Positions 22,575 to 33,362 of a stretch of 42,735 nucleotides of DNA are shown here, piece by piece. Positions within the stretch are counted from its first letter, which is position 1, and every line of letters starts with the position of its first letter. The stretch is from Pseudomonadota bacterium (GTDB lineage Bacteria > Desulfobacterota > Desulfarculia > Desulfarculales > Desulfarculaceae), in NCBI GenBank assembly GCA_018819925.1, contig JAHJPG010000120.1, positions 1 to 42,735 on the forward strand, written 5' to 3'. A model generated the notes under the pieces. It was not told where the DNA came from. It was given only the letters and a program-made list of their open reading frames with translations, and ran no database searches. The translations under genes were made by a program, and so were the position numbers.

Positions 22575-23241
22575 TCATCTGAGTCCGGCCACCATGGCCG
22601 GAGTTTCCTGACTCTGATAGTATGCCATCTCGAGTTCTACGGATGGAATGTTTCCTATGGGCTTTAGCAGCCGCCGGTTGTTAAACCAGTCCACCCATTC
22701 CAGGGTGGCGAATTCTACGTCTTCAAGATGGCGCCAGGAGCCGCGCCGGCGGATCACCTCCGTCTTATACGGAGGGCTCTATGCCCGCTTCGGCCAAGCG
22801 CTCCGTGTAGCAGATCGAGACATACCGCACACCACTGTCGCTGTGGTGCACCAAGTAGTCGGTGCCCGGACGAGCCCAGAGCGCCTGCTCCAGCGCGTCT
22901 AGGGCCAGGCCGGTCCGTAGCGGGCCCGAAGCCCGCCAGCCCACGATCATGCATGCAAACACGTCGATGACCAAGGCAACGAATACAAACCCGCGCCATG
23001 TGGCCCCGTAAGTCAGGTCCGCCACACAAGGCTCGTTGGGCCGGCTCGCGGTGAAATTGCGCTTCACTAGGTTGGCTGGCCGGGCGGCGCCGTCGTCCGC
23101 CACGGTGGTTTTGTACTTTTTGCCCCGGACGGCTCCCTGCAGCCCCATGGCCCGCATCGGGTGCTCCACGGTGCGCCTGGGCCCACCCCGATCTCCTCGC
23201 GGTTCAATTGCCGCCAATCGCTCCACTTTTAGACCACCATT
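22575..23241 (-). pseudogene. IS3-family OrfB transposase remnant
   Basis: On the minus strand this encodes the rve/DDE part of an IS3-type transposase: MRAMGLQGAVRGKK, CVADLTYGATWRGFVFVALVIDVF (first Asp) and DYLVHHSDSGVRYVSICYTERLAEAGIEPS (second Asp). The segment that should follow EPS and carries the catalytic Glu (GDSYDNALAE-type) is deleted; sequence resumes in another frame at YKTEVIRRRGSWRHLEDVEFATL and ends normally (WVDWFNNRRLLKPIGNIPSVELE). Another frameshift lies near 23,200, where WRQLNREEIGV is read in a second frame. The element cannot transpose by itself. It borders the AT-rich island and may have taken part in its acquisition. Confidence 0.88.
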
Positions 23242-23328
23242 CACAGCCAGGTACTCAATGCGGGACTGCTCGTTGAAGAACCGTTGTTGGAAGCTGATCA
23301 AGGACGATCCCTTATGACTCTTACCCAC
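23242..23328 (-). pseudogene. IS1595-like transposase N-terminal fragment fused to IS3 remnant
   Basis: The first 29 codons of the 187-codon minus-strand frame (start ATG 23,326-23,328) read MGKSHKGSSLISFQQRFFNE, followed by QSRIEYLAV. This looks like the beginning of IS1595-family transposases (GKSxKGISLxxFQxxF-TE--C-EYL). After that the frame runs straight into IS3 OrfB sequence. The likely reading is an insertion or deletion that joined two dead elements. Homology was judged by eye and is moderate. Confidence 0.5.
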
Positions 23329-23451: not shown

Positions 23452-24591
23452 ATGTTTGGATCGGCATTGAAAAACTCAAAAATCATCACAGTGCTCCAAG
23501 TGTTGGAGAGCCTCGGTATCGGCGGGATGGAACGAGTGACTGTGAATCTGGCCCTGCGAAAGGGGCAAGAAGGCTTCCGTTGCGGCTTGGCTGCGTTGGT
23601 CGAGGGAGGGGGCTTGGAAGAGGAGGTGCGCTCCGCCGGAGTGCCCCTGACCATTATTCATAAAGAAAAACGGTTTGATTGGCGGGCAGTGCGCCGCTTG
23701 GCAGCCGAAGTGGATCGGCTTGGAGCAGATGTTATTCATGCTCACAACACACTGGGTATGCTTTATTCGATAATGGCAGGGAGGCTCACCCGGACACCTG
23801 TGATAACGACTCTGCATGGATCAAGTTTTCAAATGCCGGTTCGCCATCGGCGGCTGAGGCGCTGGATGTCCAGCCAGTGCCGAAATATTGTGTGCGTGAG
23901 TTCCTCGGCCTACAATGCCGCCAGGATGCAGGATCGCATACCGGAACACAGGTTGCGTCTGATTTATAATGGGATATCTCTGGCTAAACCTGATGCGCAA
24001 TCCGCGGCATCCAAGGGCCTGAGGGAAGAATTGCATCTAAACCAGCGGGGCGGCCTATTCATCAGCGTGGGTCGTCTCTCTGCAGAGAAGGACTTACCCA
24101 CCATGATTCGGGCCATGGCCCTATTGCCGGCCAAGGGAGCGCGGGCCCACCTGGCGATAGCCGGAGACGGGCCGGAGAGGATTCCGCTCCAAGAGTTTGT
24201 GCTCTCCCAAGGTCAAGGCGAGCACATAACTATTTTGGGTTCTAGGATGGATGTTCCCGCATTGCTGGCCTCGGCCGATGTGTTCATACAGAGTTCCCTG
24301 ACCGAAGGCACCTCGATCGCCATATTGGAAGCGATGGCCGCCGGCCTGCCCGTCGCGGCAACCGCAGTGGGGGGTAATGTCGAGGTGGTGGTGCCGGAAG
24401 AAACCGGCCTGCTGGTGCCGCCCAGCGACCCTTCGGCCCTGGCCGGAGCCATGAGCGCGCTGTTGGACAACCCCGGGCGCTGCCGGGCCCTGGGAGAGGC
24501 GGGAGCCAGAAGGGTGGCCCAGCACTTTTCCCTGGAGGCCATGGCCGGGGCCTACGCCCTGCTGTACCGCGAAGCTCTAGGCCTTGGTTAG
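23452..24591 (+). CDS. Glycosyltransferase family 4
   Basis: A 379-residue GT-B enzyme. Its N-terminal domain contains VLQVLESLGIGGMERVTVNLA, the glycine-rich loop of GT4 proteins, and VIHAHNTLGMLYSIMAGRLTRTPVITTLHG. The donor domain starts FISVGRLSAEKDLPTMIRAM and shows the retaining motif EGTSIAILE (EX7E), then AAGLPVAATAVGGNVEVV and GLLVPPSDP. A weak promoter-like TATACT (23,370-23,375) lies in the AT-rich gap upstream, which would make this gene the first of its own unit after the IS remnant. Its stop overlaps the convergent radical-SAM remnant by 15 bases. Confidence 0.92.
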   Translation: MFGSALKNSKIITVLQVLESLGIGGMERVTVNLALRKGQEGFRCGLAALVEGGGLEEEVRSAGVPLTIIHKEKRFDWRAVRRLAAEVDRLGADVIHAHNTLGMLYSIMAGRLTRTPVITTLHGSSFQMPVRHRRLRRWMSSQCRNIVCVSSSAYNAARMQDRIPEHRLRLIYNGISLAKPDAQSAASKGLREELHLNQRGGLFISVGRLSAEKDLPTMIRAMALLPAKGARAHLAIAGDGPERIPLQEFVLSQGQGEHITILGSRMDVPALLASADVFIQSSLTEGTSIAILEAMAAGLPVAATAVGGNVEVVVPEETGLLVPPSDPSALAGAMSALLDNPGRCRALGEAGARRVAQHFSLEAMAGAYALLYREALGLG

Positions 24592-25029
24592 GCGGCCGCC
24601 AAGGAGCACTTTGAGGTTGCGCCAAATGCGGTCGCCGTGGCGCAGGTTGATCTTACCGTTTTTAAGCAGATAGAAGCTCTTCAGCGGCATTCCTTTGCGC
24701 AGCTTGGCCTTGATCTGCGACTCGCAGACCCCGGGCAGCAGCATGTTCTGGGACCAGACGTCCTCTATGGTCTTGTCGGGCACCAGGCTGTGGCGCTGGG
24801 CCAGCCGGGCGGTCCACAGGGCGAAGGAAATGCCGTAGATGTCCGGCTTGAACTCGGCGATGGCCGCGATGTGGTCGTCCAGGGAGGCCTGGCCTTCCAA
24901 ATAGCGCACCTCCATCTCACCCTGGTAATGCCGCCGCAAATAGCTGACCAGGTAGAGGATGCCGACGTTGGGATAGCTGAGGTCGTAGTACTGCTCTTTG
25001 CGGGGAGGATCGGCCAGGAGGATGCGCAT
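24577..25029 (-). pseudogene. B12-binding radical SAM protein remnant without radical SAM core
   Basis: The frame starts MRILLADPPRKEQYYDLSYPN and runs through GILYLVSYLRRHY to FKPDIYGISF, the cobalamin-binding N-domain of B12-binding radical SAM enzymes. It should then continue for some 300 residues with the CxxxCxxC cluster, but it switches at about residue 80 to a tail (DKTIEDVWSQNMLLPGVCESQIKAKLRKGMPLKSFYLLKNGKINLRHGDR) that looks like the C-terminal end of the same type of protein. The whole catalytic core is missing in frame, so no radical chemistry is possible. An ATG at 25,044 is also in frame, but it lies inside the terminal repeat of the adjacent mobile element. This is most likely a deletion relic, though a stable short protein cannot be excluded. 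Confidence 0.7.
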
Positions 25030-25034
25030 GGCCT

Positions 25035-25295
25035 TAGCCCGCATATTTCATGAAGGCCGTGCGTCCGGCTGCGCCAGCCACCGGCACCTCGTGTTGTTGG
25101 CTGCGCCCGGTCCTCGACGTAGCCCTGGCTACGCCAGCGGCCCTCGCTTACCAGACGCCTTACCTGCCGGCGGCTGGCTGTGCCGGTTGCGCGTGCAAAC
25201 TGCACCCCGATAAGACCAACACTTTTTTCATAAGGACCGCATAAATACTAATTCGCTGTTTTTTGCCGCACAGCCTTCATGAAATATCCGGGCTA
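25035..25295. mobile_element. MITE-like element, 261 bp with 29-bp terminal inverted repeats
   Basis: The left end (25,035-25,063, starting TAGCCCGCATATTTCATGAA) and the right end (25,267-25,295) are reverse complements with 27 of 29 positions identical. The interior has no coding frame I can support, as expected for a non-autonomous element that needs a transposase from elsewhere. The left end touches the 5' end of the radical-SAM remnant and the right end carries the stop codon of a possible small membrane protein. The middle part (25,064-25,190) is related to the repeat at 31,260. Confidence 0.75.
25064..25190 (-). repeat. Dispersed repeat core, copy A (inside the MITE-like element)
   Basis: Read on the minus strand this core begins CGGCACAGCCA and contains GGTAAGCGAGGGCCGCTGGC, then a GTAGC/GCTAC hairpin and CTACGTCGAGG. 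It aligns over about 125 bases with the plus-strand stretch 31,261-31,392, at roughly three-quarters identity by eye. Confidence 0.75.
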
Positions 25296-30235: not shown

Positions 30236-31156
30236 ATGAAAATAGCCATTGTGGGCCCCGGAGCCATGGGGCTGATGTTGGCCGCCCGCCTAAAACAGGC
30301 GGGGGCCGAGGTCAGCCTGTTGGACCACCGCGCCCAGCGGGCCCAGATAATCGACCGGCAGGGGGTGTTCCTGGAGCACCCCCAGGGCGAGGACCATTAC
30401 GCCATCCCGGCCAGCGCCCAGCCTGAGATATTGGCCGGCGTCGACTTGGCCATAATTTGCACCAAGGCCTATCACACCCAGGAGGTGGCCCGCGCCCTGC
30501 GGGCCCACCTGGGCCCCCAAGCCCGGGCTCTGACCATGCAAAACGGGGCCGAAAACGTGGAGACCCTGGTGGATGCCTTGGGGCCGGAGAGGGTCCTGGG
30601 AGGCATCACCAGCGAAGGGGCCACCCTGCTGGGCCCCGGCCAGGTCCGCCACGCCGGCCGGGGCCTGACCCACATCGGGCCGGCCCAGGGGCCCGTGGAC
30701 GACTTCACCGCCCAAGTGCTCGAGTTGCTGCTGGCCGCCGGTTTTCAGGCCGAGGCCAGCGAGGGGGTGCAAAACCTCATCTGGACCAAACTGGTCATCA
30801 ACGTGGGCATCAACCCCCTCACTGCCATCTTGGAGGTGCCCAACGGCCGCCTGCTGGAGTTGGCTCCGGCCGGGGAGGTAATGGCCGCGGCGGTGGAGGA
30901 GGCGGTGGCCGTGGGCCGGGCCCTGGGCGTGCGCTTTTTGCACGAGGACATGCTGGCCTCGGTGCAGCAGGTTGCCCGGCGCACCGGAGCCAACATAAGC
31001 TCCATGCTCCAGGACGTGCGGGCCAAGCGGCGCACCGAGGTGGCCTACATCAACGGCGCGGTGGTGCGCCAGGGCGAGCAGGCCGGCGTGCCCACTCCGG
31101 TCAACCAGACCCTGACCCATCTGGTGCAGGCCAAGGAGGCCGGCTACCTGGGATAG
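30236..31156 (+). CDS. panE: 2-dehydropantoate 2-reductase
   Basis: A 306-residue ketopantoate reductase. The N-terminal NADP-binding loop is KIAIVGPGAMGLMLAARL, and the family motifs CTKAYHTQEVARAL, TMQNGAENVE, GGITSEGATL and the catalytic-lysine region LIWTKLVINVGINPLTAI are in place, with EVAYINGAVVRQGEQAGVPTPVN at the end. It reduces ketopantoate to pantoate with NADPH, directly after PanB. RBS AGGGGGG lies upstream. panC and panD are not in this window. The product and partner order is classical. Confidence 0.95.
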   Translation: MKIAIVGPGAMGLMLAARLKQAGAEVSLLDHRAQRAQIIDRQGVFLEHPQGEDHYAIPASAQPEILAGVDLAIICTKAYHTQEVARALRAHLGPQARALTMQNGAENVETLVDALGPERVLGGITSEGATLLGPGQVRHAGRGLTHIGPAQGPVDDFTAQVLELLLAAGFQAEASEGVQNLIWTKLVINVGINPLTAILEVPNGRLLELAPAGEVMAAAVEEAVAVGRALGVRFLHEDMLASVQQVARRTGANISSMLQDVRAKRRTEVAYINGAVVRQGEQAGVPTPVNQTLTHLVQAKEAGYLG

Positions 31157-31193: not shown

Positions 31194-31226
31194 GCGGCAT
31201 GACGGTCTAATGAATCGTCATGCCGC
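31194..31226. repeat. 11-bp perfect hairpin after panE
   Basis: GCGGCATGACG and its exact reverse complement CGTCATGCCGC enclose an 11-base loop, 38 bases after the panE stop. There is no T-run, so termination would be of the non-canonical kind; a repeat-type (REP-like) role is also possible. Confidence 0.6.
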
Positions 31227-31260: not shown

Positions 31261-31392
31261 CGGCACAGCCAGGCGGCGGAGGGCAAGGCGTTCGGTAAGC
31301 GAAGGCCGCAGGTGTAGGTGTAGCTTTAAACTACATCGAGGCCTGAGCGAAGCCGACAACGCAGCCCTCGGTCGTCTGGCGAAGCCGGGCCG
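31261..31392 (+). repeat. Dispersed repeat core, copy B
   Basis: Starts CGGCACAGCCAGGCGGCGGA and includes GGTAAGCGAAGGCCGCAGG, a GTAG-loop-CTAC hairpin with loop CTTTAAA, and ACATCGAGGCC. It aligns to copy A at 25,064-25,190 in opposite orientation. It ends exactly where the oppF stop codon begins. Confidence 0.75.
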
Positions 31393-32364
31393 CTAGCGGA
31401 AGTGGCAGGCGCATCGGTGCCTGGGTTCGATGTCTTTTAAAAGGGGCTCCTCACGGCTGCATATATCCTGGGCCTCGGGGCAGCGGGGGTGGAAGCGGCA
31501 GCCCGGGGGCGGGTTCACCGGACTGGCCACGTCGCCCTTCACCGGCGGCGGGGGCATGACCCGGTGGGGGTCGGCCACCGGCGCGGCGGCCAACAGGGCC
31601 TCGGTGTAGGGATGCCGGGGCGGGCGGTCGAACACCGCCGCCGGGCCCACCTCCACCACCTTGCCCAGGTACATCACCGCCACCCGGGTGGATACGTGGC
31701 GCACCACCGAGAGGTCGTGGGCCACGAAGAGGTAGGTCAGGCCGAAAGTCTCCTTCAAATCCATGAGCAGGTTGAGCACCTGGGCCTGGATGGACACGTC
31801 CAGGGCGCTCACCGGCTCGTCGGCCACCACCAGCTTGGGCCTGAGGGCCAGGGCCCGGGCGATGCCGATGCGCTGGCGCTGGCCCCCGCTGAACTGGTGG
31901 GGATAGCGCCGGGCGTGCTCGGGCCTGAGCCCCACCTCACTGAGCAACTGGGCCACCCGTTCCTTGGCCTCTTGGCGGGTGGCCAGGCCGTGGATCAAAA
32001 GGGGCTCGGCCAGGATGGAGCCCACGTTGAGCCGCGGGTTCAGGGATGTGGCCGGGTCCTGGAAAACCACCTGCATCTGGCGGCGCATGGCCTTGAACCC
32101 GGCCCGGTCCAGGGTGGTCAGGTCCTGGCCCTCGAAGAGCACCCGGCCGCTGGTGGGCTTCAGCAAGCCCAGGGCCAGGCGCCCCAGGGTGGATTTGCCG
32201 CAGCCGCTTTCCCCCACCAGGCCCAGCACCTCGTGGGCCTCCACCGCCAGGTCCACCCCGTCCACCGCATGCACCGTCTGGCGTTGAACGCCCATGAACC
32301 CCGCGCCCACCTTGAAAAACTTGGCAAGGCCTTCCAGGGCCATGAGGGGAGGCGTTTGGCTCAT
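31393..32364 (-). CDS. oppF: Oligopeptide/dipeptide ABC transporter ATP-binding protein
   Basis: A 323-residue ATPase with Walker [14 protein letters not shown]-loop QVVFQDP, signature FSGGQRQRIGIARAL, Walker B KLVVADEP and H-loop VAHDLS. The C-terminal oligopeptide-transporter extension has a cysteine set (GCRFHPRCPEAQDICSREEP) that in this family can bind an iron-sulfur cluster. It would energise uptake of peptides or similar solutes as a partner of OppD. The start at 32,364 overlaps the oppD stop (ATGA), which is preferred over the longer frame inside oppD. No binding protein or permease gene lies next to it. Confidence 0.92.
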   Translation of the reverse strand: MSQTPPLMALEGLAKFFKVGAGFMGVQRQTVHAVDGVDLAVEAHEVLGLVGESGCGKSTLGRLALGLLKPTSGRVLFEGQDLTTLDRAGFKAMRRQMQVVFQDPATSLNPRLNVGSILAEPLLIHGLATRQEAKERVAQLLSEVGLRPEHARRYPHQFSGGQRQRIGIARALALRPKLVVADEPVSALDVSIQAQVLNLLMDLKETFGLTYLFVAHDLSVVRHVSTRVAVMYLGKVVEVGPAAVFDRPPRHPYTEALLAAAPVADPHRVMPPPPVKGDVASPVNPPPGCRFHPRCPEAQDICSREEPLLKDIEPRHRCACHFR

Positions 32365-33362
32365 GCCGCCAGCCTCCGGGCCCGGCGGGCCTGGTCGTGG
32401 TGCAGATAGCAGCGCACCGAGTGGCCCGGCGCCACCTCCACCAAGGCCGGTTCGGCCTGGCGGCACAGGTCGAAGGCCTGGGAGCAGCGGTCGCTGAAGG
32501 CGCAGCCGGGGGGCAACTCGCCCAGGGGGGGCACGATGCCCCCGATGGTGGGCAGCTTTTGCCCCGGCCGGGGGGAGCGGGCCGGCAGGCAGGCCAAGAG
32601 CCCCTGGGTGTAGGGGTGCAAGGGATGGTCGAACAACTCGTCCACCAGGGCGTCTTCCACCAGGCGGCCGGTGTACATCACCATCACCCGGGAGCAGGTC
32701 TGGGCCACCACGGCCAGGTTGTGGGTTATCAGAAGCACCGCCGCCCCGGTCTCGGCCTGGAGGCGGCGCATCAACGCCAAGATCTGGGCCTGGATGGTCA
32801 CGTCCAGGGCGGTGGTGGGCTCGTCGGCGATGAGTAGCTGGGGGTCCAGGGCCAGGGCCATGGCGATCATCACCCGCTGGCGCATGCCCCCGCTGAGTTG
32901 GTGGGGATAGGCCCGGGCCCGGGCCTCGGCCTCGGGGATGCCCACCTTGTGCAGCATCTCCACGGCACGCTGCCATGCCTGGCTTTTGGAAATGTCCTGG
33001 TGGGCCGTGATCTCCTCGGCTATCTGGCGGCCCACGGCGAACACCGGGTTCAGGGAGGTCATGGGCTCCTGGAAGATCATAGACAGTTCGTTGCCCCTGA
33101 GCCCGCGCAGTTGGGCGGGAGGCAGGGTCAAAAGGTCGCGGCCCTGGAACAGGATGCGGCCCATGGCCACCCGCCCCGGAGGAGAAAGCAGCCCCATGAC
33201 GCTCAAGGCGGTGAGCGACTTGCCGCAGCCGCTTTCCCCCACCAGGCCGGCGATCTCGCCCGGAGCCACGGTAAGGCTCAGGCCGTCCACGGCCACGATG
33301 GGACCGGCCTCGGAGTCGAAGACCGTGGTCAGGTCGTCTATATGAAGCAGAGGTTGGGTCAA
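32361..33362 (-). CDS. oppD: Oligopeptide/dipeptide ABC transporter ATP-binding protein
   Basis: A 333-residue ATPase with Walker [28 protein letters not shown], signature [15 protein letters not shown], Walker [17 protein letters not shown], and the family C-terminal cysteine region [17 protein letters not shown]. It pairs with OppF as the two cytosolic engines of a peptide-type importer. It overlaps the glycerate kinase gene by four bases at its start and oppF by four at its end, so the three are translationally coupled. The missing permease genes may lie outside the window. Confidence 0.92.

Follow-up and report, generated by a model that had tools for sequence, protein, structure and literature searches.

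The window analysed here is a 42,735-nucleotide stretch of Desulfarculaceae DNA (contig JAHJPG010000120.1), and two segments of it, one on each strand, resemble each other over about 125 bases. We were interested in whether these segments belong to an interspersed repeat or a structured RNA, and in what governs the position of such a sequence next to genes. The two copies were found where a preliminary description of the window had placed them. They align along their whole length and form the strongest inverted repeat of the window, with a 57-nt stretch that is 82% complementary. Copy B is free-standing and occupies 31261..31387 on the + strand (full-length covariance model match, 120.2 bits); the core of copy A occupies 25066..25185 on the − strand, inside a MITE (113.5 bits). 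The start at 31261 given in the preliminary description was correct, but the end at 31392 was not: the element stops at 31387, and 31392 reaches 5 nt further, to the next stop codon. Copy B is 127 nt long, compared with a family norm of 120 nt, because its apical loop carries a 7-nt expansion, in agreement with the earlier remark that the stem is kept while the loop differs. The position of the element at stop codons, which proved to be its main property, was absent from that description, and so was its spread through a phylum.

Copy number, distribution and conserved fold

A BLAST search of the source genome with copy B returned about 42 genomic copies with E values below 1e-10, and a covariance model built from 47 copies (model R1) found about 100 after opposite-strand duplicates were removed. 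The expectation of further copies with similarity above chance was thus borne out by both methods. The copies are nearly always 118–123 nt long (norm 120) despite an identity of only about 70–80%. Model R1 also detected 34 to at least 90 copies in each of seven congeners, so that family members are present in 8/8 genomes of the genus. Within the Desulfarculaceae, one other sampled genus was positive with R1 (44 copies), and exact-pattern matches among named relatives included members of this same family, one of them Desulfocarbo indianensis. When a broader model made from diverse copies (R2) was used to scan the phylum at a threshold of E 1e-5, matches were obtained in 144 of 297 Desulfobacterota genomes, covering 104 of 201 genera. 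The complete genome of Geobacter sp. AOG1 contains 88 copies.

The exact pattern also matched contigs labelled as other phyla, which may represent transfer or binning error. Clear members were observed on contigs labelled Nitrospirae, Syntrophomonadaceae, Bdellovibrionales, Gammaproteobacteria and Thermodesulfovibrio (loci L103, L106, L109, L130, L138, L154 and others). Spread by phages or plasmids was considered and rejected: the pattern is rare in viral contigs (8 matches in 2.9 million), and no plasmid matched it. Searches against Rfam (release 15) gave 0 matches in the window and, at 12 diverse loci, none above the gathering score that overlapped the element.

The element folds as one long rod, an imperfect palindrome. 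Among the 47 copies, 93% of paired cells are standard pairs and 27 of the 40 pairs show changes on both sides. Double-change cells numbered 166, compared with 47 in shuffled alignments, and the covariation score was 0.29, compared with 0.135 when shuffled and at most 0.063 when slid. In a phylum-wide set of 68 copies, double changes were seen in 18 of 22 pairs. Compensatory changes were therefore found, and with about 100 copies this strong covariation strongly supports the earlier suspicion of an interspersed repeat under selection for structure. Three blocks are nearly invariant: the 5′ arm carries GCAAGGCG, the 3′ arm carries CAACGCAG, and the third block is the apical GGCGTA/TACGYC hairpin. 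The invariant blocks are unpaired or flank bulges, and the other stems vary with their pairing kept. Part of the diverse set was gathered by a pattern built from these blocks; the set found by R1 only shows them too. The tips of the rod differ by lineage yet stay complementary (AAAAAGTCC/GGACTTTTT in many Desulfobacterales and Syntrophaceae, GCCAGGCGGC-type in the source genus).

At paired positions, G-U outnumbered A-C by 78:28 in the source genome and by 117:30 phylum-wide, ratios that serve as indications and not as probabilities since related copies are not independent. This excess indicates that the strand written + at 31261 is the strand whose folding is kept. For copy B, the RNA fold of the + strand gave z = −6.6 and that of the reverse strand z = −2.2, making + the better-folding strand. 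For the gene next to the element this is the template strand. A hairpin of single-stranded DNA is therefore just as likely as a structured RNA, and the structured RNA reading of the preliminary description is unproven.

Placement behind stop codons and orientation to replication

At the window locus, copy B abuts an oppF/dppF-type gene for an oligopeptide/dipeptide ABC transporter ATPase, whose open reading frame spans 31393..32976 on the − strand (start codon uncertain). The TAG stop codon of this gene, at 31393..31395, lies 5 nt from the end of copy B. Pfam matches in the C-terminal half comprise ABC_tran and a complete oligo_HPY C-terminal domain, indicating that the gene is not truncated. 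Its stop codon lies at the identical position in two sister genomes that lack the element (G004 and G005). On the other side is the convergent ketopantoate reductase (PanE/ApbA) gene (30236..31156, + strand, identified by its reading frame and domain match), followed at 31194..31226 by its terminator-like inverted repeat, GCGGCATGACG..CGTCATGCCGC, which was recognised from the sequence and from alignment with G004, G005 and a third relative, G007; a T run comes next in the element-free relatives. The element is present at this locus in the source genome and in G007, and the site is empty in G004 and G005, where the layout is terminator, 14–15 nt, stop codon. The stop codons abutted are native. 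The possibility that the element supplies the stop codon was rejected, because sister genomes without the element share the stop and the window gene is of full length.

The separate terminator-like repeat at this locus also bears on the reading that the family is a plain intrinsic transcription terminator turned repetitive. The element does resemble such a terminator in forming a strong hairpin, rich in GC, that lies behind genes and mostly between convergent ones, but no U tract follows the element (TTTT occurs in the next 12 nt of 1/67 copies) and the terminator-like hairpin of the window locus is a distinct feature beyond it. This explanation is very improbable.

When genes were called around 96 copies, free-standing copies were seen to end 0–6 nt from a stop codon, and the stop-adjacent gene lies on the strand opposite the better-folding strand, which is thus the template strand of the gene. 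Because the gene caller was a home-made hexamer model, the key stop-codon test was repeated without a gene model, scoring stop codons that lie within 12 nt and terminate, in frame, an open frame of 80 or more codons. Such a stop was present at the gene-side end in 45/66 copies of the source genome, 30/53 of G005, 26/30 of AOG1 and 28/73 of the diverse loci. At the other end of the element the counts were 3/67, 4/53, 1/30 and 2/80, respectively, and random positions gave 3.3–4.4%. The difference between the two ends was significant by Fisher test (p 6e-8 to 1e-15). TAG, TAA and TGA were counted 30, 8 and 7 times in the source genome, 18, 6 and 6 times in G005, 11, 8 and 7 times in AOG1 and 8, 7 and 13 times at the diverse loci. 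The use of all three stop codons indicates that placement is not tied to one DNA word. TAG as a DNA target motif was rejected, the excess of TAG being mild in the source genus and none being evident in AOG1 or the diverse loci. Moreover, the flanks between stop codon and hairpin vary freely.

The orientation of the copies follows replication. In the 1.6 of 4.48 Mb of the complete G005 genome that were examined, “−” is the well-folding strand in 33 of the 36 copies located at positive GC skew and “+” in 13 of the 17 at negative skew, which makes 46 of 53 in all (46:7), though only about half of the genes there are co-directional with the fork. In AOG1, which belongs to another class of the phylum, copies switch orientation near 0.96 and 2.92 Mb, where the skew signs match, and 70 of 88 copies agree with the polarity, the breakpoints being fitted. 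The better-folding strand is mostly the leading-strand template. In the source genome, and likewise in G005, about 64% of copies are located between convergent genes; such regions make up 15% of all intergenic regions in G005. The stop of the gene co-directional with the replication fork was used 25:3 in G005. A convergent pair offers both stops, so gene content does not account for this choice.

Turnover, proposed mobility and capture by a MITE

Thirteen stop codons are occupied in both the source genome and G005. About half of them hold recognisable orthologues; at the others, the copies are no closer than random ones. Tandem copies are common; they share an orientation, are spaced 2–12 nt apart and include partial remnants that follow a full copy. 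At three places in G005 (C1:22316-22482, 88957-89199 and 946134-946625), a full element at the stop is followed by fragments that contain the far end only, as though the stop-proximal part of older copies had been overwritten by newer ones. Several elements (G005 C1 near 51127, 111658, 149168 and 183895; C63, C75 and C81 of the source genome, G000) are followed directly by another palindromic repeat, ..GCGATAGCGTAGGTTGGGTTGAGCGCAGCGAAACCCAACAATTCC, which looks like a separate, GTAGG-headed REP-like family. No sign of target-site duplication was detected: flanking repeats of at least 5 nt occurred in 5/67 copies of the source genome, compared with 4.7 in shuffles, and in 1/30 copies of AOG1, compared with 2.0.

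Copy A differs in its surroundings. It lies in a 261-bp element (25035..25295) whose 29-bp terminal inverted repeats, at 25035..25063 (+) and 25267..25295 (−), are 93% complementary. A pattern for these ends gave 60 genomic matches in the source genome and 0 in the control, and about 20 near full-length copies carry the core at an identical internal position; the ends are thus common to many short copies, as in a MITE. The MITE family with these ends (TAGCCCGSATATTTCATGAAGG..) is present in 8/8 genomes of the genus, with 167 end matches in one of them (G003). Among the matches listed for the eight genus genomes, no pair of these terminal repeats stood at the spacing of an insertion sequence that could be the parent. 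Beside the MITE, a truncated-looking reading frame for a B12-binding domain (PF02310) at 24577-25044 has its start inside the left end of the MITE, which may have cut a radical-SAM type gene here. A 187-aa fragment with an integrase core domain (PF00665) at 22765-23328 is apparently an insertion sequence remnant. That the core can exist without the 29-bp ends, as claimed earlier, holds for 67/96 copies examined. MITE-borne cores fall outside the stop-codon rule, with 5/23 near a stop and every one of these at exactly 12 nt. The idea that the hairpin is only the core of a MITE was rejected on these two grounds. Copy A illustrates the past capture of a core by an unrelated MITE, which now spreads it as a passenger without the stop-codon rule.

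How the free-standing copies reached their places was considered in light of these data. The leading account, in which we place about even confidence, is that of an ancient, non-coding, dispersed hairpin-repeat family of Desulfobacterota behaving like REP-type elements, as mobile hairpins established 3′ of stops. The repeats would be, or would once have been, mobile as single-stranded hairpins and would establish just 3′ of stop codons. The polarity could arise if insertion uses the lagging-strand template, or if copies with the strongly folding strand as lagging template are lost through replication slippage. At the mRNA level, the terminating ribosome would cover the hairpin with its footprint, and an effect on termination or on decay from the mRNA 3′ end is probable, as for stop-proximal REPs of E. 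coli. Of the two strands, that of the mRNA folds less well, a point against a role confined to the mRNA. Against the mobile reading, target-site duplications are absent, and the empty sites could also be deletions. No mobilising enzyme was found for the hairpin family.

Alternatively, the element could be a 3′-UTR element beneficial to its host, widely spread, with stop-adjacent copies kept since the hairpin tunes termination, ribosome recycling or mRNA stability, so that position and orientation reflect selection and not targeting. The conservation of the stop-codon position across the phylum is consistent with this, as are the recognisably orthologous copies kept at about half of the comparable orthologous stops and the regulation of translation by stop-proximal REPs in E. 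coli (PMC12306157). However, the peak at 0–6 nt is sharper than expected from tolerance alone, sister species hold unrelated copies at the same stop, and the 46:7 replication polarity has no obvious link to mRNA function; the weaker folding of the mRNA strand argues in the same direction. We regard host benefit as rather unlikely to be the explanation. Just as doubtful is the proposal that the stop codon itself guides the insertion of a mobile hairpin, through a coupling to translation termination or the mRNA and not to a DNA sequence, with orientation locked to the direction of replication. If true, this would add a principle of transposition targeting that is not known from bacteria.

A further candidate is a REP-type repeat that owes its movement to a Y1 (HUH) transposase of the RAYT/TnpA-REP kind, acting on the lagging-strand template. 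The geometry and replication polarity of the family resemble IS200/IS605 biology (PMC6006769), and presence of the element is weakly associated with presence of Y1_Tnp (odds ratio 2.0, p 0.005, not corrected for phylogeny). On the other hand, no PF01797 match was obtained in the source genome, G005, AOG1 and 17 other copy-rich genomes. Only one of the seven Y1 loci of the genus has a copy in its vicinity, at a distance of about 1 kb or more; with six loci lacking flanking copies and none adjacent at the seventh, there is no REPtron. The family moreover has no GTAG foot, measures 120 nt compared with 20–65 nt, and is preceded by any of the three stop codons and not by one tetranucleotide. Mobilisation by RAYT/Y1 was searched for in the genus and in 297 genomes of the phylum and, being dispensable in 20/80 copy-rich genomes, was rejected; we consider it quite unlikely. 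A SINE-like retroelement, in which target-primed reverse transcription at the stop codon would convert the folded RNA into DNA, would account for the polarity through a 3′-OH primer at that codon, and a first BLAST list contained mostly copies without the 5′ part. In 1.6 Mb of G005, however, fragments with only the 5′ end (about 10) were as common as those with only the 3′ end (about 13), indicating no 5′-truncation signature, and this origin is most improbable.

Under either main reading the family is of some consequence: it occurs in about half of the genomes sampled from a major environmental phylum, with about 90–100 copies in the best-counted ones, at the zone where ribosomes terminate. 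If placement is targeted, something would read stop codons during insertion; if it is selected, there would be a phylum-wide layer of 3′-end control. The family offers a clean and countable system for how REP/ERIC-type repeats spread and act, in cultured species such as Geobacter, and a covariance model is supplied for it, as it is missing from Rfam.

Comparison with known repeat families

In integrons, the attC site is a hairpin that follows a stop codon and is folded by the template strand, and VCRs are about 120 nt long. An attC-like site, with gene, stop and a hairpin whose bottom strand folds being recombined by a tyrosine recombinase, would match the family in its position directly behind the stop, in the strand that folds and in length. 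Yet the R″ (RYYYAAC) and R′ (GTTRRRY) sites were both present in 0/67 copies of the source genome and 0/30 of AOG1, and the copies are dispersed behind syntenic chromosomal genes, outside mobile cassette arrays. An attC relationship is hardly credible on this evidence.

ERIC is a dispersed imperfect palindrome of about 127 bp. By description (PMC10969869), it is like the hairpin family in these respects and in having no known transposase, and it is set apart as enterobacterial, filed as a MITE and described there with no stop-codon rule stated. The Chunjie MITE of Geobacter uraniireducens is described in the same source with a size (235 bp) and a copy number (38) comparable to those of the MITE of copy A, whereas the free-standing hairpin core is distinguished by the lack of terminal inverted repeats and target duplications.

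The closest published record is that of Aklujkar et al. 2009 (PMC2700814), which lists 24 “predicted short RNA elements” (Additional file 4), the Gmet_R1 family, in Geobacter metallireducens, also present in G. sulfurreducens, G. uraniireducens and Desulfotalea psychrophila. These elements are intergenic and multicopy, and their central palindrome GRCGTAGCGCTGCTACGCC matches the reverse strand of the apical hairpin of our family (GACGTAGC..GCTACGCC); judged from this motif, Gmet_R1 is probably the same family. That paper places Gmet_R1 in 5′ regions of genes and gives no structure model, stop-codon rule, replication polarity or phylum-wide spread. A search of open-licence papers with sequence words matched PMC2700814 only and returned no family name. 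The repeat had been called undescribed, which is mostly right, since neither a name nor an Rfam match was found, but this 24-copy family sharing its central palindrome was listed in 2009. The stop-codon rule, consensus, replication polarity and phylum-wide family were not found in the open-licence literature searched and appear new to that extent.

REP elements, among them the GTAG- and CGTC-tagged repeats (PMC3733652) and the REPs of E. coli, resemble the hairpin family as intergenic palindromes of high copy number that follow genes and often separate convergent ones. Many E. coli REPs lie within 15 nt of a stop codon, and REPs at this distance stall ribosomes according to PMC12306157, which cites earlier work; this makes them the closest functional parallel. 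The parallel is imperfect because the better-folding strand of our family is not the mRNA strand. REPs are about 20–40 nt long (up to 65 nt), have a tagged foot and mostly go with a Y1 transposase, and in GTAG REPs the TAG stop is often part of the repeat itself; our family, in contrast, measures 120 nt, has no tag, lacks Y1 in many hosts and abuts native stops of three types. It therefore shares with REPs high copy number, extragenic location and a position downstream of genes, but not the short palindrome, the GTAG/CGTC foot or a cognate, flanked Y1 gene. As it matches neither REP nor attC, no Rfam family and no terminator, it is best classed as an interspersed palindromic repeat with a placement rule of its own.
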